Translations under genes and position numbers: made by a program
Shown: one piece after another, positions 7,605 through 39,320 of the stretch
Numbering within the stretch: position 1 is the stretch's first letter
How the letters are laid out: every line of letters starts with the position of its first letter
From: Owenia fusiformis
Lineage: Eukaryota > Annelida > Polychaeta > Sabellida > Oweniidae
Length of the DNA: 64,000 nucleotides
NCBI GenBank assembly: GCA_903813345.2
Contig: CAIIXF020000005.1
Span: 23,005,375-23,069,374 of the forward strand
Reading direction: 5' to 3'
The notes under the pieces: model-generated
Database searches by the model: none
Seen by the model: the letters and a program-made list of their open reading frames with translations, nothing else
What the model was told of the DNA's origin: nothing

Positions 7605-9410
7605 TATGTCATTGTTAAACGCCTTTTTGGTACTGGCGTTCGTTGTCAGTGTCGGAGAGGTTGTTTTTTCTGTGATTATAATACTTATATGCATGCCAGC
7701 CATAAATTACGTACATGTCTCAAACTGAATCTACCTCCACTTGAAAAAGTTATGTTCGATAAGGTAAACGTTTAGCGGTACCCTTTGAAGTATCAGCCCA
7801 GAACGCAGGTATGTTTTCGGGGTATTTGTTTATAAGTGTTGATTTCTACATTTTGTTGATGTTTAGATTCAGGATGTCTATCAAGAAAAATGAGAGGCTG
7901 AAACTTCAGAATTTCCATTTAGTAATATATTTAGTAATATATAGGGAAACTTAACTTACAATTAATCTCCAGTTATATCTCCAGTGTCTCCTCTGATATG
8001 AATGATTAGATGCGAGTAGAAATAATTTTGATTTACGTCACTAAATATTCAAAACCCAGTAAAAGTAATGTCATATTTGAAATCTACATGTAAAAGGAAT
8101 ATGGTTTCGGAAATTGTTTATCAACTTTGAAACATTTTTTTTGAAAATGTGTTTTCTAGTTCGGGGAGATTCCCCATAGACCCCATGTTATAAAATCACA
8201 AAAAAATGAAATATCTTTTTTTTGTATTGGACAGATAACATGTTCTTTAAATATTTAAGTTAAAAGAGACGTTCTACTATACCCGCCATGCTATCTGACC
8301 CGAACGAGCCACCTTTTGGTGAAACTGATAACTACCTACTCGTATACGAGTCATAAGAGATGGTGCAAAAATGTGTTTGCTGACGAAAAATGTTGACTTA
8401 ATTTCAACATTTATCTCTCGAATAAACACAAAATTGAATTGAAAATTGAAAATCAACATATCAAGTGTATTTGATAATGTAAGTAAATGACTTCTGTCAA
8501 GATTACTTCGACAAGTCGTAAAATTTAGATGCCAAGAACACTTGGAACTCAACAGACGTCCTTAATATTTCCAACAACTAGAGCTCGCTAGAGCTGTTCA
8601 GCAAATAATCCATTTAGTCGTAACCGAGGCATCTAACAAGATATTACTGCAGGTCTTCGTTTTCTGTCGGCACAAATCATGTTCCATGCGCCATACCTAT
8701 CTATAACGCTGTGTCTTCTGTCTCCTCTTACTATTCATAAGGAAGATACTCATTAATCAGTGGCAGTTTCATCTCCATATCCTAATTTTGCCGGTAGACG
8801 GGTAACATTTTTCTTTTATTAATTACTTATAAGCATAATGGACATTAATTCTGATCCTCGCCTATTAGTTATAACTTTGTTATGAGCAACAACTTTGTTA
8901 TTACCTTCAAAACTTGTTTCTAGTTATAATTGTATACAGCATTTCCCTCAAAAGGATGAGTGAAATATTTGATCTTCCTTTTTTGTATACAATTTGAAGT
9001 CTACACCTCGCACCTGTGTGCTTTATTCCTTGCTTTATTCAATTATTTTCACTCTTTTCTGCATTTAACATCTTTAACTATCATGACTTTTTTCACGGGA
9101 GGCCAGGTCTAATTTCCACTCATACGTGAGGACACTGTTCATGCGTAATAATAATCTTTAATCAAATAAAATAATGACACATTTAGACAGATTCTACTAT
9201 TATATGTAAATCACGACTTCACAATAATTTGTAGAAAATCAGAGAAATTATGTAAAGTTCGGAATCGTTTTGTTATGGATCTCCTGGATAGAATTCTCAT
9301 AGTGTTGTTTTGAGGCCTTGGAGTAGGAACCATCAGGAGACGGTAACGGCCGTTACATTGTCTTTCAAAATTGCAGAAGGTTAATGTTGATTTCGTCATG
9401 ACTACACATA
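7605..9410. other. Intergenic around repeat copy at 8.0-8.3 kb
   Basis: Outside the ATGCGAGTAG-ended element nothing is recognised. The minus frame 8277-8552 reads into that element's right end. Confidence 0.4.
8009..8344. mobile_element. ATGCGAGTAG-ended repeat element, copy 1
   Basis: Left end GATGCGAGTAGAAATAATTT, right end CTACCTACTCGTAT, so the ends are inverted over ~10 bp. The interior matches the 13.0 kb copy (GATTTACGTCAYTAAATATT, GATTCCCCATAGACCCCATG, CTATCTGACCCGAACGAGCC). No coding capacity. Confidence 0.65.
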
Positions 9411-13019: not shown

Positions 13020-13433
13020 GTGCGAGTAGAAATAATCTTGATTTACGTCATTAAATATTCAAAATCCAGTCAAACTGATGTTTTATTTGAAATCTACGTG
13101 TAAAAGTTCTTCTTGAAATATCGTTTCGAAAAGTGTTTATCAACTTTGAAAATTAAATTTGTTTTCAAAATGTGACTTCTAGTTCGGGTTGATTCCCCAT
13201 AGACCCCATGTTACAAAATCACAAAAAGTGAAATATCTTTTCTTGTATTGGACAGATAACATTTTCCTTTACTGGACATATTTTAGATACTATTAGATAC
13301 ATAAGGGTTATATGAAAATTGAACCACTAAAACATATGTAATTTAAGTTAAAGGGAACTTTCTACTATACCCGCCATGTTATCTGACCCGAACGAGCCAC
13401 CTGGTGGTGAAATTGGTAACTTCCTACTCGCAT
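13020..13433. mobile_element. ATGCGAGTAG-ended repeat element, copy 2
   Basis: Same ends and interior as the copy at 8.0 kb, about 75 bp longer, including the GATACTATTAGATACATAAG block that also occurs at 24.27 kb. It represents the state without the ~84-bp insertion seen in copy 3. Confidence 0.65.
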
Positions 13434-14447
13434 ATATGTTATTTCCACCAGCCACTCTTGTTCTGGAGCGTTTCTTTGTTTAGATTCAGTAATGAACGCT
13501 CTGGTGTGAATGTAGGAGCGTTTCGGGTTATGCAGGACGTCAAGTAAGTCTGTTCTCCCCCTTAACTTTTTATTTAATATAGAAGTAACATGATTATTAT
13601 ATATCATCTTAAAGGGAATTCAATTTGCTGATCACATACCAAATTTCAGAGTGATTGGTTAAATTCCAATTTAACCAATTGGTTGATCTTCGATTCATTT
13701 TTCGACCCTGTCCTTCGTAATTGAAATGTACATGTTTCACCTTTCATTCACTCTCCTGGTAATTTTAATCGTTTTGGCGTTATCAACAACAACCTAACAA
13801 GAAACATTGCAGCCATTTTATTAGGACGGGTGCATTATTGATTTCAAGGGTGGAGAGCATTTTCCATAAGCTTTAAAATGCTATATGGGTAGTATAAAAA
13901 AGTTAAGGGGAGAGACTTTTTGACGCCCTGTTAACAGTGTGATAACGAGTACCATGTAGAGCATGTAACGTTTGGTTAAGGTTGAGGTCTTTCTCTGTAC
14001 TCGCGAATACACAAGTACAGCTTCATACTCCAGAACAAAATACCAAAAAGAAGAAAGTACTTGTTAGAATCAGGTTTATTTCGTACAATATTTTCTATCA
14101 TTTGCTTAACCGACGAAGCGAGTATAACATTGCCACACTTTTATAATAATCTAACCATCTGTAGAAATAAAATAAAAAGGCCATAAAATCATACTGCTGT
14201 CAGTTTTACCAGGGTTTCATTATAATTTATTTTTTGAAAAACGCGTTTCTTTGATAATACTGCTTGCAATATCAGTTACTTTTGGACATATTCTGTTATT
14301 TATTAGCCTAGAACTAATGGTATCTATGAGTTTTTCAACCGCCAGCCCTCATATAAATTATCTGTTATTGACTCTTATTCGTTCATGATTGAGACAGCAG
14401 ATTGCTTTGAATTTATGCGCCACTGGTTGCGTCAGGCTTTTTTGTAT
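13434..14447. other. Intergenic; one coding-like stretch on the minus strand
   Basis: Minus-strand 13440-13607 reads RTDLLDVLHNPKRSYIHTRA and on, then runs into the repeat element at 13433. It looks less AT-biased than its surroundings but has no defined borders. Confidence 0.25.
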
Positions 14448-19959: not shown

Positions 19960-20889
19960 GTTTTTTATCGTATGATCTTAGGCCAATACATTTTACTTAG
20001 GAAATAATCCCTACGAAATATTCTGCACTCTTTGTACATATTGAGATTGTTCCCTCCGTACCAATATTTTCTGTATTGCTACGGAGATGATTAATGGGGA
20101 CAAGCTAAGTAGCAACCTAAATTCCGTTAATATACACATACAATATGTATGCTGTATACAGCAACATTTCCAAACTCATCATATAACCCCAAGAGCAATT
20201 TGAAGAGGGAAAAAGTCAAATGGACTATTAAAGTCTTTCTAATGATCGAATCGTACACCTGCAGATTGTTGGAACAGAGTTGTGCAACAGCTAAATCTAG
20301 CAAAGCTTAACAACGAGATACGTTTATTAGTAAGACAATGGACAAGGGCAGCACAAGACCAAGGGTTCATGAAACTCGTCAGAGAGGGAGAGGGGAAATG
20401 TGCTACAGAAACAGTTATCTCTCTAGTCCATCCTAGCCGCAAAGGCTTGGATTTTCAAAGCGAACCTCTTTCAAGAGCGAATATTCCCTTTCGAGATTGT
20501 ACCCACTAAAGCACTTTCCTGACATGTTGCTAATTTCAGGTATCAGAAATACTATCATCAAGCTTACCATATCATGTCATGGAAAGATCATATACGATAC
20601 CACATTAAAGAATGAGCTGCGACACAATTTGTATCTTTCTGCGAGTGATTGTTAATAATCAACCGCAGACAAAGCATACTGGCGAAACTCTAATGACACC
20701 GTGACGCCCATTGCAGTATTGAAGGCGCAATGGATGACTTTTTCGTCGTTCTCGATTAAGTCCTGTCTACACATTTTCAGGTGAATCATTTGATGGATTG
20801 ATTTCAATGATGTTTCTTTGTATTTCAACCTAGATCTGACTAGTTTTTGGTAATTCTGGGTAAATGTTAAAGCGGCTGTGACAATAAAT
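19960..20889. other. Intergenic, two weak opposed frames
   Basis: Frames at 20239-20509 on both strands and at 20652-20894 (minus; contains NDEKVIHCAFNTAMGVTVSL). None has borders or motifs that support a gene. Confidence 0.3.
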
Positions 20890-20898
20890 CCCACGCAC

Positions 20899-20983
20899 CA
20901 TCATGATATACCATGACATCTCATTTCTTCTCAGCCCTGATATGTTTCAGGTGAAACAGAAAGATGCTATGAGTATCAGAATG
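20899..20983 (+). mobile_element. ~85-bp mobile unit, second copy, with 9-bp flanking repeats
   Basis: Starts CATCATGATATACCATGACA and ends GAGTATCAGAATG. Direct repeats CCCACGCAC flank it at 20890-20898 and 20984-20992. Nearly identical to the reverse complement of 24304-24387, apart from a few substitutions and a small indel. Two different flanks with different repeat lengths argue for independent insertion. Confidence 0.6.
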
Positions 20984-21115
20984 CCCACGCACATGAACTA
21001 AGAAACTGATGTGCAGTTTATGGCTGTGAAAGTAAATGTCAGGAATGCCAGGCATACAATAATAAAAACTGATGTGCAGAAAATGGCCGTGACAATCAAT
21101 GTCAGAAATGCCATT
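20974..21115. repeat. ~63-bp repeat, two units plus a partial third
   Basis: TCAGRAATGCC recurs at 20976, 21039 and 21102, with AACTGATGTGCAG and ATGGCYGTGA at matching positions between. The first motif overlaps the end of the ~85-bp mobile unit. Confidence 0.55.
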
Positions 21116-21187
21116 ATCTCTGTGAGTGATCATAGTAACATGTCACTAAGCGGAACCAGTCTTATATTTCATCCCATATCATAGACT
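21115..21187. repeat. ~74-bp repeat, copy 2
   Basis: Same orientation as the 18.5 kb copy, with few differences. It directly follows the 63-bp repeats. Confidence 0.65.
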
Positions 21188-21625
21188 GAAGTAATTACAG
21201 CAGCATACGGACCACAATTGATATAGATCAGCTCTGAACCGTTTTATTTGCAATCTAATGCTCTTTTACTATCTTATGTTTGATGAGACTTTAACCACAA
21301 GCGAACAATCATGACTTTTTAATGTGTTCAACAAGTAAAATCAATAAATGTCAATGATGCGTTGATTATTGATAAGTTGATAAGTTACTTGTTGGTTTGT
21401 CTACTAATAAGTCTGGCATTTAACGACGGTGTATTAAATACAATGCAATCTACTGCATCAACTACCAATCAACAATCTTCAACAATCCTGTTTCCCTAAT
21501 GTTAATTAATTTCTAAATCAAGATTGTTATTGATTTTGTGTACTGGTATTTCAAAGATCTAATGACATTTACGATTTGTTATCGAGTACAACATTTAAAG
21601 GACATAACCAGAATTGTACCTTCAG

Positions 21626-22229
21626 GGGTTTGTGTAAAAAAACGGGTGACCGGAACCCTACCTTCCTACCAGGGTTTGGAATTTGATTTTTTCATTTTAT
21701 GCCTCAAAACGCCCAACTGACATCCCAATCAACGTACCAGTGACACAACCAATCAAGCAAACAACCAAGCAAGCAACAAAATTTATTTACCAATAAATCA
21801 ACCGGCAAAACGACAAACAAAATTAATATAATGTCAATCAGTGAGGCAATAAATCAAGCAACTAACGTTGTATTGTACATCGGACACTAATGAACAGATA
21901 AAAACGGCAAATAACGTTTCAATTTACGCATACGTAAATCTTCCAGATTTGTTTAATATTTGTATCTAGAAGAAATCGCCATCATAGAAAACAATCATCG
22001 ATATCCAGTCAATCACTCAGACAATAAATCAAGCAACTAACGTCATCGTACGTGTAAACTGTGTAAATAACTACCTAGGACTTCCGAAATTACGTCTCTT
22101 ACAGGTTCTTGGTAAAATGATAACGTAAAAATATTGAAGGGTAGTTTACCAAATGTGCAACTTTGAAAGTTGGTAACACTAGTACCCGGATACCCGGCCA
22201 CCCGGTCACCCGTTTTTTTACACAAACCC
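21626..22229. mobile_element. TIR element, 604 bp, perfect 28-bp TIRs, 10-bp TSD
   Basis: The ends start GGGTTTGTGTAAAAAAACGG and are perfect inverted copies over 28 bp. Flanking GTACCTTCAG (21616-21625) and GTACCTTTAG (22230-22239) look like a target duplication with one mismatch. A 9-10-bp duplication is typical of Mutator-like elements. The interior holds two copies of an AATAAATCAAGCAACTAACG block. Confidence 0.75.
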
Positions 22230-22239
22230 GTACCTTTAG

Positions 22240-24262
22240 TCAAGAATAATAACGAACCATATGGATGTCAAGATATGCAATCATTGAGTTGCAAATTATA
22301 GAAACCCCAGTGAAGTATCTTAAATGAATAATATCAATTGCAGACGATATATAGTTCGTTTGTAACACATTCAAGGAATGTCAAAATGGCCTTGAGAAAA
22401 ATACATTGTAACGAACAGAAGCACAGAAACGGAACTATTTGATTACACTAGCATTAACGTCTAGTAAAACATAATAAGAAAAACTACTGCTCTACATCAA
22501 CAGAATACTAGATATATATAATATAAAGGGTGGGCCATAGAATACGATGCAACATAACCGTTTTGGTAATGTTTCAATTAGTTACACAATGAAAATATGG
22601 CGTTTTGGCACTTCCTCTAGTTGGTATGGTTCCTATAATTGCGAAATGACTTATATGCATTTTTAACTTATTAATAAATGCTAATTAGACGCATATGTAT
22701 TATTGATGTTTTATTATACTTCTTTATGTGTATATTTTATTGGTTGAGAGAGGTTTAAAATATAAACATAAATTTCTGACACTGAGAGTGTGAAATGCAA
22801 TTTTGCCAGATGTATATATGTGATACAAAATGTGCATAGCAACTGATTTAATAGTCACACAAAGATTGAAATTCAATTACGATTAGAAAGATTACGATCT
22901 GGGTTATCTTTATTTAAGCAGTGCAAGGATGTCCATTGGGAAATCGAATTCCGATTTCTCCTTACTGATCATGAAGTGAATGACCTGCTCCCGTTTGGTG
23001 AAGCAAGTACGATAATCACCATCATTGAAGATTAGCACCGCTGTTGTAAAGCCGTATAAAACGATCATTAGTAGACGTGTAATTCGTAATTTATCATTTA
23101 TTCACCCTTTCGAACACAAATTCACATTGCTAAGGCTGGTTATATTCTTATAAACGGTAAATATCAAACAATGGAAGAATACCCGATTGCAGCATTTGAT
23201 TACATTGGAGGTTACAGAGCTGCATCAAGGTTGTGAATTAATTGGCATTTATTTGTTGATTGACTTTAGTTGGATATGCGTCTTTCAACCTCAATTTTCT
23301 GCCATCGTTAAAGGCGGTACTATCAGGATTATAGTGTCATAAATTAGCCTTGGATAAAGACTTCATGTGATATCATTGGATTATAGGGTATGATATACGA
23401 GAGGTATGATTGATGTGGTGGATTAGCAATAATCTTGAAAAATAAACACATGTTAAGTTACGTAGCTGCTTGTCATTTGTCTAACACGAGGCAACACAAT
23501 AATACAGAGATCTCTAATGGAGGTAAAACATATTCAGGGACGTGTGACAATTTTAAGTTATTCTTGTATTTTGTACACGCATGATAAGCGCAAGGATGAG
23601 AGCGAGTGTTACTAGGTATGAGATCCGAAGAATTCAAAACAAATGTCTGATCTTGACTTTACAATTTAGACTCATCATGCCTGTTTACCCATTTCGCCTA
23701 ACGAATATAATAGAGGCGCTATTGGTCAATAACCTCATTTAGTTCTCAGAAATGCACAGTTATTGGACGATTTGTATGAAGAGGGGAACATCATGATCAT
23801 CATTTCTAATATTTCTTATTTCTTTCGAAGCAATCAACACTAAAACTAATGAGGTCTTAACCTCGTAGAAAACACGAGTGTAAAGTGACGTAAAATACAT
23901 ATTCATTTAGCTCACTTCTTTCTTGCCTCTATATATTGAGCTGATTTTTTCATTCATCTTTATCGATCGTAGAGAAGTAGTGGAGATTACATAATTGAGA
24001 TTAGTACAATTACAGGAATTGCGACCTTGAAAGTAAGTAAATCTGCCATAATTCGATGTTTGACTTTTCATGTATTGTACATGGATTTTTTGTCGTATAA
24101 TAAAAATGATATACAACAACCTTGTTTAAAATATTTTTCTTAGCGTTTCCCATGAAAAACACAATCTTGATGTAGATTCAAAGGTGAACAGAGACTTGCA
24201 TTTAAAATCGAAATTGTAACCTATATAATTGCCAGCATAGTATTTAATATTTTAATTTGCAT
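22240..24262. other. Intergenic, nothing beyond one transposon end
   Basis: AT-rich; only the GGGTGGGCCA-type end at 22.53 kb stands out. Confidence 0.4.
22527..22620. repeat. Single GGGTGGGCCA-type transposon end
   Basis: AAAGGGTGGGCCATAGAATA resembles the inverted forms TTTTTGGCCCACCCTGTATA near 19378-19397 and TTCTGGCCCACCCCGTGTAA near 29013-29032. The three ends could not be paired into an element. Confidence 0.35.
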
Positions 24263-24507
24263 AACTATTAGATACATACGAATTATATGAAATTTGAACC
24301 ATTCTGATACTCATAGCATCTTTCTGTTTCACCTGAAACATCATCTCAGGGCTGAGAAGAAATGAGATGTCATGGTGTATCATGATGAATTTGAACCATT
24401 AAAACTAAGATGTAATTTAAGTTAAAGGGACCTTTCTACTATATACACCATGCTTTCTGACCCAAACGAGCCACCTGGTGGTGAAACTGGTAACTACCTA
24501 CTCGCAT
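24263..24507. mobile_element. ATGCGAGTAG-ended repeat element, copy 3 (right part, interrupted)
   Basis: Matches the right half of the 13.0 kb copy (ATTAGATACATACGAATTAT, AAGTTAAAGGGACCTTTCTA, CGAGCCACCTGGTGGTGAAA, ending CTACCTACTCGCAT). An unrelated 84-bp unit interrupts it at 24304-24387. Confidence 0.65.
24304..24387 (-). mobile_element. ~84-bp mobile unit with 13-bp target duplication
   Basis: Flanked by perfect direct repeats AATTTGAACCATT at 24291-24303 and 24388-24400. The related repeat at 13.0 kb has an uninterrupted site (AATTGAACCACTAAAAC), so an insertion occurred. The unit matches the reverse complement of 20899-20983 almost throughout. It can fold: TGATAC/GTATCA at the ends, GTTTC/GAAAC and CATCTCA/TGAGATG inside. 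No A-rich tail. What the parent molecule was is unknown. Confidence 0.6.
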
Positions 24508-25216
24508 CTGCGTTATTATTTTGAATACGATTATTTCTACCCACATCTAGCTAGTCTATTGGAGAATGTTGTTTCTCCATTGTTGAAAAGAAGAATACAT
24601 TATGTTTTAAATACCATTGGTTTCTATGGGAACTAGAATTTTAGAAATGCATTTTCTATGGACCACTTTCATGCATGAATGGGTTTGTTTCTAACTTATT
24701 TATAAATCAGTTTTCTTAATTTATTCGACAATAACACATAGGGATGAATGCTCTGCATTGGTATGAATTATCTCTAAAAAATCCATGTGACCTCTAAAAT
24801 TCAGTTTTGAATAGATTCACTATTTTTGGAATAAAAGTCCTTCAAAAACTACTTTTTGAATTCAAAAAGAAGTTTCACATATCACAATTTGCTAACATTG
24901 GGAAGGATCGATATATGTAAAACTTTATACGGAGCCTTTAAAAAACGTTCACAGTCTCTCAATCTAGAGATTCTATTATGTATGCATTAATGTTTGCCTT
25001 CTGTTATAACTTGATTACGGTGATAAAATACCAGATCGATTGTTCATTTCTACACTGCGCTATAAATATAGATAACAATTATATTTGCAATGATTAAACA
25101 ATGTATCGGTATATAAATCTTGCACTGTCTTTCGAAAAAATCATGAAAGTAGGTGTAATCTAAAAAGTAATCTTTATCCGGGACCTGGTTAAGTATATTC
25201 AAAATAAGCATGTTAG

Positions 25217-26648: not shown

Positions 26649-26690
26649 CATTCTAATCTCATCACATCTTTCTGCTTCAACTAGAAATAT
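26649..26690 (-). repeat. Diverged part-copy of the ~84-bp unit
   Basis: CATTCTAATCTCATCACATC and the following TTTCTGCTTCAACTAGAAAT align with the same end of the 24.3 kb copy at roughly four bases in five over ~41 bp. The other half is not recognisable. Confidence 0.35.
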
Positions 26691-29237
26691 GTAATTAATT
26701 TGATTGGTCATCAGCATTTTGAAGAAAACTGTTCGGGGCCAAATCGAAACTAAACTGAAATTGTCTCATGACATTCTACGAGTAGAGAGAACACCGTGGA
26801 GAAGCTAATAGAAGACCAGGATTTCTCATGATAATAAATATATATCATTTAGTTGTTTGAACAGCAAAAACCTAAATTTTGCCTTATCTACTATTTTTCA
26901 GAAAAAATGTGTCTGATATTATCACCACAAGAAAAAATGTGATAATAACCAGACTTAGTAGAGCAATATCAATACCACTGAAGAATTGCAACTAATGAAA
27001 ATTATTGTTCTTCAACAAGAGATATTTTTGGATTTTCTGTTTTTTGTTAGTATTGATTAATGTTTCTCCTACTTCGACCGTGTTACCATATGAAGCTCCC
27101 CAGCCCTATTTTATCATTAACGTTTTACAACGAGGGCAAATGCATCCACATGGGATAGTTGATATAATGTCAGGTGTAAATCGTTTAAAGCTGGGGAGTT
27201 ACCATATTACGATAACAATTAACGATCCTGATCTGATTTTACTTGGTGTAATTACGCTGCCTGATTCACTGGGGGAGTCTTCAGTTGAGATTTAAGGTTG
27301 TTATAGCAAGAGCCCTAAAAAGTTCCAATAAAGGTATATATTTTATATAAAAAATATCTTCTTGGAGCATTACCAAAAGATGATATGATGGTCAGTATTC
27401 TCCTTTTAAATAGCTGACAAATAACACTTTTGACAAATTGTGTTTCAAAGATACAATACGTCATATATTGACAATGAAGAGGGATTAAAGATTAAAATAA
27501 AACAATCAGAATTATGATGACAGCTTGTCATAAATAAGCAGAGACAACAATTAATCTTGTTCTACACAAAATCAACCTGCTATTTGTAGTCCGATAATTT
27601 TATACATAAGCATTAAATAGTTTTCAAATTACACAAGGGATGATAAAAATAGAATAGAATTATGAATAGGAAATTGAAAAAATGTAGATATAATCGCAAT
27701 GATCACTCTCGCGCTCTTGAGGTTATTCAGTACTTTTTAAGATTGAATCAGAAAGTTCAAGGCCCTGCTGTTCGTATACTACCAAATCAAAATTGTAATT
27801 ATAACTTGAAGTTAAATGGAATATTATGTTTATAACATATGTCAAATCATTTTTGCAAGAATTTTTAAAATGTCTAATATTTTCTAAATCTTATACAAAT
27901 TATGTATATTTCTCAGGACATGAGACGCTGGTAAAAAGTGTTGAATTGTATGGTTTCTAAATAGCACGTCCATGAAGTTCGTTAAGAGATCATATGTGAA
28001 ATCCCAACTTCGTACATCCGCTCGAGAGAATTACCATCTTTAGATTTTCATGCTATCGATCCCAATAGGTTCATTGCCCAACTGTCAAAAGCAGAGAACT
28101 ACCGGATCGCACTCATCATTATTTACTCTCTAACGCACAACGCATATTCCTTTGGATGAAATAACATCATCTACTCTTACTGAAAATTGACTAATTTCTG
28201 TTATTTTCATTTTATTGACATGCATCTACAGGTTTGGCCACAAATGTCAATGGTTTTTATTTGGTAATAGCATTTCGATTTTAATAGTGCATACATTTTT
28301 TCATTTTTGATGGAGATCACATTTGCAATTGTTTCTGTAAAAGGGACAAATACAAATAAATCTTCAGGGGTTTCTGCATAAGAAAGGTAAACATAAACTA
28401 AGGGTCTAGATGAAAGTATACTGTTTTCAGGTTAATATTCAAAGCATCAATTTTAAATTGATATTAGTCATGCCTAAAATAATACTTCCAGATTGACACA
28501 TTATTCAGTTTTCAGAGAAAAACATTGGGTAGGGTGAAAATAATTTTTAAACTATTTCTGGCCAAAAAGCTATTAGAACTATCACAAGAGATATAATTTA
28601 GATTCAACAAAATTGATTCAGCATTAACAAAAAGTGATTTGGGAAAAATGCCTCTACTGGGAAAACTCTTCCGAAGATCAGAAAGGTCCTGCAAGATTGA
28701 CCCCAAGATCTTAAAACTTGTTTTTTTCAATGTTCGTAATGTCTATAAGGCAGAATCAGATCATATAGGGTGTGACATTGAAAGCAACGTGGATAAAACA
28801 TATGTAAGCAGTTCATTTAATCTACCCTATATGTATCAATACCTTCAATTTATATCAGAATGTGGTGCTTAGTAGTGTAAGCACTGCATAACGTGTCTCT
28901 CTGAAAGACTGATTAAGATACACATCCAATTCCGATAAATGGGGCAAAACTAAAATCACTCTAAAATGTGGACGGACACAAAATATTTCCTTGAAACCTC
29001 AAAGTGAACGTTTTCTGGCCCACCCCGTGTAATTATGGTTGGCTAAAATATCTGAATAAATATTGAGACTATGAGTGAGTCTACAGAAGCAAGTGTCAGC
29101 AAAGATAAACAATTCATGTTTCTAAATTATATTTATTCAATCTACCACATCAATCATTATCTATGATTAACCTATTTTTGAATTCAAGGTAAAAGTTTAA
29201 TGACGGTATAGTGCAAAACGGATGGACAATGCATTTA
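26691..29237. other. Intergenic, weak frames only
   Basis: The 27005-27295 frame has a hydrophobic start but begins at TTG, with no ATG in frame; 28639-28872 has no family features. A transposon-like GGCCCACCCCGTGTA end lies near 29018. Confidence 0.35.
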
Positions 29238-37832: not shown

Positions 37833-37877
37833 TTGATGATGGTTCGGATTCATTAAAGATGTAACTCATAGAATAAT

Positions 37878-39320
37878 ATGATACCCCACCAATTAGAAAC
37901 TTCTGAAAAGTCTGCCGGCATTATGTCTTTCCTGTCCTCTCGAACAACCGTTCAGGCGCCGATCTCGGATGTATACGGAACTGACACCACGTTGAATACG
38001 TCCGGAACAGCATTTGGCGCTACTTCAATTGGCGTCATTAATAGCTCTTATCCTAGTGGAGGACTCAGTGCTGATGACATTCATAATTATCTTCATGCTG
38101 ATGAACTAACGAAGGTCAACCTATATGACGACGTCACTCAGTCCATTCTAATCGCAGCATTTACGACATTGATCCTTTTTGGAGCTGCTGGTAATGGACT
38201 TGTAACGTTGGTTGTGATACGGAATCCTCACATGCGAACGCCACGAAACATTTTCATTATTAATTTAGCAATCTCTGATTTAACGCTGTGCTTGTTGACT
38301 CAGCCTCTAAACATGTTTAAAATGCTACGGAAGGATTGGCCACTTGGTGATTTCATGTGTAAGATGGTACCAATGTTCCAAGGCACTAACGTATTTGTGT
38401 CTACCATCAGTATAACAGCCATCGCACTGGACCGTTTCCAAGTGATAGTCTATCCAACCAAAGAGAGCATGAAGAAAGTTGGGGCTGTAGTGGCCCTGAT
38501 CAGCATATGGATCATAAGTCTAATGATGTCGAGCCCTCTACTTATTTTCAATTATACACAACCGTTCCCCTTGAAGGAGTTCTACGCGTTTACCATTTGT
38601 TTTGAGAACCATGACTATAAAGAGGCCAGAAGTGCTTACTCCATTGCATCAATGATCTTTCAATACGTTCTCCCAATCGTTATTGTCAGCGTGGCTCATG
38701 CACGCATCTGCAACAAACTCCGATATCGTATTATCAATCAGCGAACAAATACAACTTCTGCCCCAATTTCCGTTTATCAGAAACGCAAAGGAGCACAGGA
38801 TAGGCGGAGAAAACGTCGGACAAATATTCTGTTAGTTATGATTGGTGTCATATTTGCATTCTCATGGATGCCGTTGAATACCCTTAACATTATCGTTGAT
38901 AATGACAATACGGGTGATATCATCGGTTCTTTTGGTAACCCTAAACTGTTCTTCGCAATTAGCCACCTATTGGTTTTATTTAGCGCATGTACAAACCCAG
39001 TTCTTTATGGATGGTTGAATGATAACTTCAAGCAGGAGTTTCTTAAAGTTCTATGCTTGCCCTGCTGCCAACGTATTGCTCAGTCCAACCATCCCCAGGC
39101 TAGGAATGGCCGGAGACGATCTAGTGCGTATCTGGCCACGGGTGCGGTCCCAACAATCACATTCACCAAGGCCACCACTACAAACAATGGTAACGGGACA
39201 ACGACAGTAGTATCAAGTAAATGTTCCGGTTCCTCAGATGAAAGATTAATTGAGGAAGGAAGTCCAATAATGTTGGATTCAAATTCAAATCGAAAGAGGG
39301 ACGGACTTGATATGCTGTAA
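37878..39320 (+). CDS. Rhodopsin-family GPCR, neuropeptide F/Y receptor-like
   Basis: A 480-aa seven-transmembrane receptor encoded in one uninterrupted exon. Seen: N-glycosylation sites N40 and N55; TM1 about 89-113 with GN at 105-106; TM2 with NLAISD (D134); C161 at the start of TM3 and C241 in loop 2, the usual disulfide pair; ALDRF at 183-187, so DRF replaces DRY; W211 and P220 in TM4; P266 in TM5; FSWMP in TM6 (W330, P332); NPVLY at 373-377 followed by GWLNDNF; C393, C396 and C397 as possible palmitoylation sites; a Ser/Thr/Asn-rich tail. GWLNDNF after NPxxY is typical of invertebrate NPF/NPY-like and related peptide receptors, which act at the plasma membrane through G proteins; the ligand is inferred. 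The start is the first ATG after an in-frame TAG at 37869; a second ATG follows at codon 16. A splice acceptor at 37830-37831 suggests a spliced 5'UTR. Confidence 0.93.
   Translation: MIPHQLETSEKSAGIMSFLSSRTTVQAPISDVYGTDTTLNTSGTAFGATSIGVINSSYPSGGLSADDIHNYLHADELTKVNLYDDVTQSILIAAFTTLILFGAAGNGLVTLVVIRNPHMRTPRNIFIINLAISDLTLCLLTQPLNMFKMLRKDWPLGDFMCKMVPMFQGTNVFVSTISITAIALDRFQVIVYPTKESMKKVGAVVALISIWIISLMMSSPLLIFNYTQPFPLKEFYAFTICFENHDYKEARSAYSIASMIFQYVLPIVIVSVAHARICNKLRYRIINQRTNTTSAPISVYQKRKGAQDRRRKRRTNILLVMIGVIFAFSWMPLNTLNIIVDNDNTGDIIGSFGNPKLFFAISHLLVLFSACTNPVLYGWLNDNFKQEFLKVLCLPCCQRIAQSNHPQARNGRRRSSAYLATGAVPTITFTKATTTNNGNGTTTVVSSKCSGSSDERLIEEGSPIMLDSNSNRKRDGLDML

Follow-up and report, generated by a model that had tools for sequence, protein, structure and literature searches.

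A very short repeated unit in the genome of the annelid Owenia fusiformis is very probably a MITE with a 9-bp target duplication

The Drosophila Foldback elements (FB/NOF) have a fold-back structure, long and internally repetitive ends, and a 9-bp target duplication. The family of short repeats described here from Owenia fusiformis has the fold-back structure and the duplication length in common with them, but differs in its unit, which is mostly 53 to 90 bp long. Three loci elsewhere in the Owenia genome (L064, L066, and L067), which we take to be Rehavkus-like elements because of their minisatellite-type ends, are different: these ends (e.g., GGTTCCTAGTCAACTCGGACCCTAG) do not resemble those of the family, and the duplications of L064 and L066 are 8 bp long. 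Rehavkus MULEs as such, according to the available part of the source (PMC6446971), make a 9-bp duplication and are found in Arthropoda and Annelida, and in both respects they resemble the family. The Mutator/Foldback element Tm1 of Meloidogyne, as covered in the accessible portion of its description (PMC3169594), is likewise similar in its mostly 9-bp duplications, its MITE-like derivatives, and its inverted ends that fold back. In contrast, Tm1 ends are composite with tandem repeats of 13 to 15 bp, whereas the ends of the present family are short and showed no tandem repeats; Tm1 has a known transposase-coding member, whereas none was found for this family in the loci read; and the target motif reported below was not seen for Tm1 in that portion. 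Muta1, a Phantom-type MULE of Aedes, also has many nonautonomous derivatives with common ends (over 300 reported), but its duplications are 8 or 9 bp, whereas those of our family are almost only 9 bp, and no apparent target preference is given for it in the excerpt available, a comparison made by description and not by end sequences (PMC5225508). We conclude that the repeated unit is very probably a MITE, i.e., a transposase-mobilized miniature DNA transposon consisting of little more than two ends. In a word-based literature search, no report of the family was found; as far as such a search shows, the family is new and the kind of element ordinary, notable mainly for its shortness.

The window, i.e., the whole stretch of 64,000 nucleotides that was analyzed (contig CAIIXF020000005.1, positions 23,005,375 to 23,069,374), contains a receptor gene and two copies of the unit. 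Copy 1 (24300 to 24387, plus strand; 88 bp) has the ends CATTCTGATAC...ATCATGATG and is flanked by the 9-bp target duplication AATTTGAAC at 24291 to 24299 and again at 24388 to 24396, after which the target continues with CATT. Copy 2 (20899 to 20983, minus strand; 85 bp) lies within a different 9-bp duplication, CCCACGCAC, present at 20890 to 20898 on the low-coordinate side and at 20984 to 20992 on the high-coordinate side. The letters of both copies and of all four flanking duplications were checked. In a within-window comparison, the copies were 94% identical over 88 bp (E = 1e-34), which bears out a preliminary description in which two nearly identical units lie in opposite orientation, with direct repeats on either side of each. 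That description also placed an uninterrupted form of the flanking repeat near 13.3 kb, and this was found: at 13316 to 13333 (plus strand), an empty-site relative of the repeat interrupted at 24.3 kb has a single AAATTGAAC followed without interruption by CACTAAAAC.

The boundaries drawn for copy 1 did not hold. They had been set at 24304 to 24387, between direct repeats of 13 bp, so that CATT fell outside copy 1, yet the same letters (AATG on the plus strand) were counted inside copy 2. Among 20 of the best genome matches, which were retrieved with a query lacking CATT and fetched regardless of their flanks, the unit starts with CATT in 16 and with a one-base variant in 4, whatever the target. 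The apparent 13-bp repeat arises because CATT, the element's own start, recurs by coincidence in the target next to the 9-bp duplication: the target at 24.3 kb continues with CATT after AATTTGAAC, and the relative at 13316 continues with CACT. Under one set of boundaries both copies have duplications of 9 bp, and the difference in length that had been claimed between them disappears; a false signal of retroposition, whose source was this coincidence at the boundary, is thereby corrected. The diverged half-copy noted at 26.65 kb was recovered as a decayed left end of the family (26649 to 26691, plus strand; 81 to 82% identity to the left 43 to 44 bp). The left-end match at 26649 to 26690 is 81% identical over 43 bp, a weak gapped alignment runs on further, and the relic possibly derives from a longer copy of the ∼361-bp type described below.

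Across the genome (498 Mb, 525 contigs), the left 21 bp of the unit gave 2,859 matches with ≤2 mismatches and the right 29 bp gave 1,478, with 0 matches for either reversed-pattern control; the presence of only two copies genome-wide, which had been named as an outcome that would speak against a mobile unit, is excluded. There are 344 elements of ∼59 to 89 bp whose inner ends are exact at either side (control, 0). Viral contigs scanned for exact left ends gave no match. One copy, at C6:8800186, is identical to copy 1 over 84 query bases and has its own, different 9-bp duplication.

Duplication length was scored with the right end placed by its terminal motif alone, the flanks not being consulted. 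The first sample (set B) consisted of 76 loci with exact left ends, all on contig C1 and taken from the start of the left-end list, and a right end was located in 69 of them. A 9-bp duplication was exact in 46/69 and had ≤1 mismatch in 60/69; exact duplications of 8 bp occurred twice and of 4 and 5 bp once each, and there were none of 6, 7, or 10 to 14 bp. The mismatched-pair control for this sample gave 0 exact repeats and 2 with ≤1 mismatch among 4,692 pairs. Of 20 of the best genome matches (set A), where L005, L008, and L009 share a flank and do not represent separate insertions, 19 had a right end; 8/19 carried an exact 9-bp duplication and 13/19 one with ≤1 mismatch, whereas at 8 bp none was exact and four had ≤1 mismatch (control at 9 bp, 0 exact and 1 with ≤1 mismatch of 342). 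Twenty small copies (set C), hand-chosen and not random, gave exact 9-bp duplications in 7/20, ≤1 mismatch in 15/20, and two mismatches in 3/20, with L134 and L148 as outliers at 7 and 9 mismatches. The control for this set (8 exact and 33 with ≤1 mismatch, of 380) is inflated by included copies with common flanks. In the sampled copies, the duplication length of the family is fixed at 9 bp.

For the target itself, 131 loci were entered, 35 of which yielded no pair whose duplication had ≤1 mismatch; the total was 99 pairs, chosen small copies included, and 10 were dropped for their flanks (6 with an identical and 4 with a similar left flank), leaving 89 insertion sites. Outside the duplication, T at −5 (54/89 sites; z = 5.6) is mirrored by A at +5 (53/89; z = 5.2), and C at −2 (fraction, 0.36; z = 5.1) by G at +2 (0.35; z = 4.2). 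Within it, position 1 is poor in T (0.16) and position 9 in A (0.15). One position is not mirrored: C is enriched at +4 (z = 5.1), but there is no matching enrichment of G at −4. The insertion target is a largely symmetric motif about the 9-bp duplication, as a transposase dimer would leave. In Drosophila, a palindromic motif reaching beyond a duplication of fixed length is a general pattern of TIR and LTR elements and variable duplication lengths are general in non-LTR elements, according to the portion of the survey that was available (PMC3276498).

The unit corresponds to the left 42 bp plus the right 46 bp of a ∼361-bp form, in which 273 bp lie between these parts. Among 63 paired C1 copies, 47 measure 56 to 90 bp and 11 belong to the ∼361-bp form (343 to 365 bp); 13 of the 76 C1 left ends could not be paired with an opposite end showing a recognizable 9-bp duplication, being decayed, shifted, or truncated. 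Copies of ∼343 to 365, 131, 108, and 53 to 90 bp all have their ends and the 9-bp duplication in common. A second subfamily, with the terminus TTACCACGATG, has relatives of 652, 812, 876, and 1,483 bp, the last being the longest. The ∼361-bp form lacks coding capacity, its longest stop-to-stop frame spanning 51 codons; that of the 652-bp form spans 72. Among relatives of the 652-bp copy, L083, L084, and L089 have frames that do not exceed 83 codons, and the broken-up stretches L082 and L085 have longest frames of 109 and 168 codons, the latter without a Pfam match.

Two internal junctions recur among the short copies. An 85-type junction (84 to 86 bp) was found at 14/89 sites and an 88-type junction (86 to 90 bp) at 13/89, the two window copies included, each in differing flanks with different 9-bp duplications; therefore, units of such size move, and the earlier view of the repeat as a tiny mobile unit stands. 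The opposite reading, in which the short unit itself is immobile and merely a module carried inside larger moving repeats, does describe some lineages. It holds for L151/L152, which have flanks in common, for L005/L008/L009/L106, which have one flank in common, and perhaps for L021/L022, where the right flanks agree. It also holds for the 77-bp form, whose nine fetched copies (L118, L126, and L140 to L146) have the same flanks, and this form was accordingly discarded as proof of mobility at 77 bp. As an account of the family, however, this reading is highly improbable, given the differing flanks of the 85-type and 88-type forms and given that 89 of the 99 pairs were kept and only 10 dropped for common flanks.

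A different origin had been proposed in the preliminary description, namely that the unit is an ultrashort SINE or a small structured RNA retroposed via target-primed reverse transcription. The unit is indeed short and noncoding, the repeat lengths of the two window copies are apparently different if the former boundaries are used, and both copies fold better than shuffled sequences, with z values on the two strands of −2.93 and −1.98 for copy 1 and −2.59 and −1.96 for copy 2. The predicted closing stem is borne out, and the structure of lowest energy is a single long, imperfect hairpin. This RNA-like hairpin is the pairing of the two imperfect inverted ends of the unit (CATTCTGATAC / CATCATGATAAAC). 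The statement that there are no long TIRs was correct insofar as the alignment of the inverted ends over 45 to 50 bp is only modestly above chance (67/2,000 shuffles were as good), but it overlooked an imperfect inverted repeat that spans most of the unit. Covariation was scored over 30 predicted pairs in 28 of 32 copies of 84 to 90 bp, which were kept after L021, L024, L039, and L130 had been filtered out. Among the 840 cells there were 0 two-sided changes, 11 one-sided changes that keep the pair, and 13 broken pairs, with a power limited by the mean pairwise identity of 95.6%. Rfam searches over 20500 to 24800 gave no match at the gathering score, and six sub-threshold matches at E ≤10 were taken as chance. 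A hammerhead-like ribozyme, considered by eye only, was dropped, there being no tool result in support. The absence of an A-tail, already remarked on for the window, was confirmed for both copies there, and no A-rich or simple-repeat tail was present in the genome copies examined.

Because the duplication is fixed at 9 bp, the target is largely symmetric, the middle is deleted in a series that keeps both ends, there is no A-tail, and compensatory RNA changes are lacking, we assign the unit to the MITEs, and the retroposition account becomes extremely improbable. The family has the features of this class in being short, noncoding, and high in copy number, in its target duplication of fixed length, and, although weakly, in its terminal inverted repeats. 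Movement of such a MITE would proceed as follows. A DDE transposase encoded elsewhere would bind the imperfect inverted ends, excise the unit, and insert it into target DNA cut with a stagger of 9 bp; the 9 bp would then be duplicated as the gaps are repaired. Smaller forms would originate when internal sequence is deleted, probably because gap repair is interrupted, and could persist since only the ends would be needed.

Regarding the mobilizing transposase, the 9-bp duplication is suggestive of a source of the Mutator/Foldback type, which is favored by duplication length only. Genome profile matches numbered 8 for Mutator PF10551, 115 for Mutator PF20700, 4 for Merlin-type PF12762, and 13 for P-type PF21787. 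Of these, 6/8, 14/115, 4/4, and 7/13 loci, respectively, were read over 3.6 to 7.5 kb each (L065 has masked stretches) and scanned for the family ends and for inverted repeats with a target duplication. No family ends were present at the loci read for any of the four profiles, which had only weak, unpaired motif matches (3 to 6 mismatches) or none. A Mutator-like enzyme (MULE, e.g., of the Phantom, Rehavkus, or Foldback/NOF type) may nonetheless quite possibly be responsible, a tentative assignment for which the PF10551 and PF20700 matches speak. The same 711-amino-acid frame is present in 6 of the 14 PF20700 loci read, and a PF20700 frame of 559 amino acids occurs with nearly the same score at 12 places, this family lying outside the 14 loci. 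In its two C1 copies, however, no exact left end lay within 100 kb among the matches listed (lists compared by eye). The 9-bp duplication found here is typical of MULEs, for which 8 to 11 bp are given in the available part of the source (PMC6446971), and Tm1 is again a 9-bp case with MITE-like derivatives in the portion of its report at hand (PMC3169594). On the other hand, Tm1 and Muta1 are described in the accessible parts of their reports as lacking target preference (PMC3169594 and PMC5225508), whereas our family has one.

A transposase from another superfamily, be it Merlin, P, or an undescribed one, is conceivable too, although we consider it rather doubtful. Merlin makes 8- to 9-bp target duplications, and the end of the Drosophila P element is, we presume, faintly similar to the ends of the family; yet neither the Merlin-type (4/4) nor the P-type (7/13) loci read carry the family ends. 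P elements have palindromic target motifs, but P-group duplications are 7 to 8 bp long, as far as the available part of the survey goes (PMC3276498). For the MITE family, the deletion series together with the clear, largely symmetric target motif provides handles for finding and testing the transposase.

At the lower end of the size range, 9-bp duplications flank copies of 53, 56, 60, 61, and 61 bp, four of the duplications being exact and that of the 60-bp copy having one mismatch, and a 46-bp copy has 2 mismatches in its duplication. The junctions of these smallest copies were unique among the copies examined, and the middles of the tiny copies in two listings (7 and 4 copies) were all different. 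Since junctions are mostly unique below about 76 bp, such copies could be postinsertion deletions. The natural deletion series of this abundant family may delimit how much of each end is required for movement. We think it unlikely, however, that the 53- to 61-bp and 46-bp copies themselves moved at that size, with ∼21 to 24 bp of left and 19 to 32 bp of right end sufficing; such copies would be among the smallest transposition-competent animal DNA elements, served by a transposase of an unrecognized group whose stagger is 9 bp and whose target is T-N2-C-N-[9]-N-G-N2-A. Finally, three left ends showed an unusual continuation: those of L074 (61 bp) and L075 (53 bp) and that of L073, which is a variant of the long form.

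At one locus of the MITE family (L046, C1:6263212-6264712), a 361-bp copy was inserted within a second copy of the same long form, and this nested copy bore its own 9-bp duplication, GAGAAGCCC. At another (L090, C2:6134900-6135700), three consecutive left ends of the TTACCACGATG subfamily followed one another at a spacing of ∼140-150 bp. Every one of these left ends was preceded by a near-identical TCT(A/T)AAATGT, and a recognizable right end was found only behind the last of the three.

Within the window, MITE copy 1 (24300-24387) had landed in an interspersed repeat (8253-8345, 13289-13443, and 24264-24301 plus 24388-24517; 85-89% identity), of which 24264-24301 and 24388-24517 are the flanking parts. 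MITE copy 2 (20899-20983) was immediately adjoined by two direct copies of a 48-bp stretch (21003-21050 and 21066-21113; 83% identity).

Among the Mutator elements, three (L064, L066, and L067), which we take to be Rehavkus-like, had inverted ends of the minisatellite type, built of CGGACCCTAGTCAACT repeats and unrelated to the ends of the MITE; these elements included frames of 599 and 617 aa, and L064 and L066 carried 8-bp duplications. A 711-aa frame of the Mutator-transposase family PF20700 was arrayed on the small contigs C313, C418, C443, and C513 of the genome (G000), with a spacing of mostly ∼3.3-3.8 kb, possibly representing a satellite-like array made from a transposon.

The window also contained an uninterrupted 482-aa frame of a rhodopsin-family G protein-coupled receptor on the forward strand (37872-39320; PF00001, E value of 3e-50), to which the closest solved chains were neuropeptide Y receptor type 2, followed by neuropeptide FF receptors.
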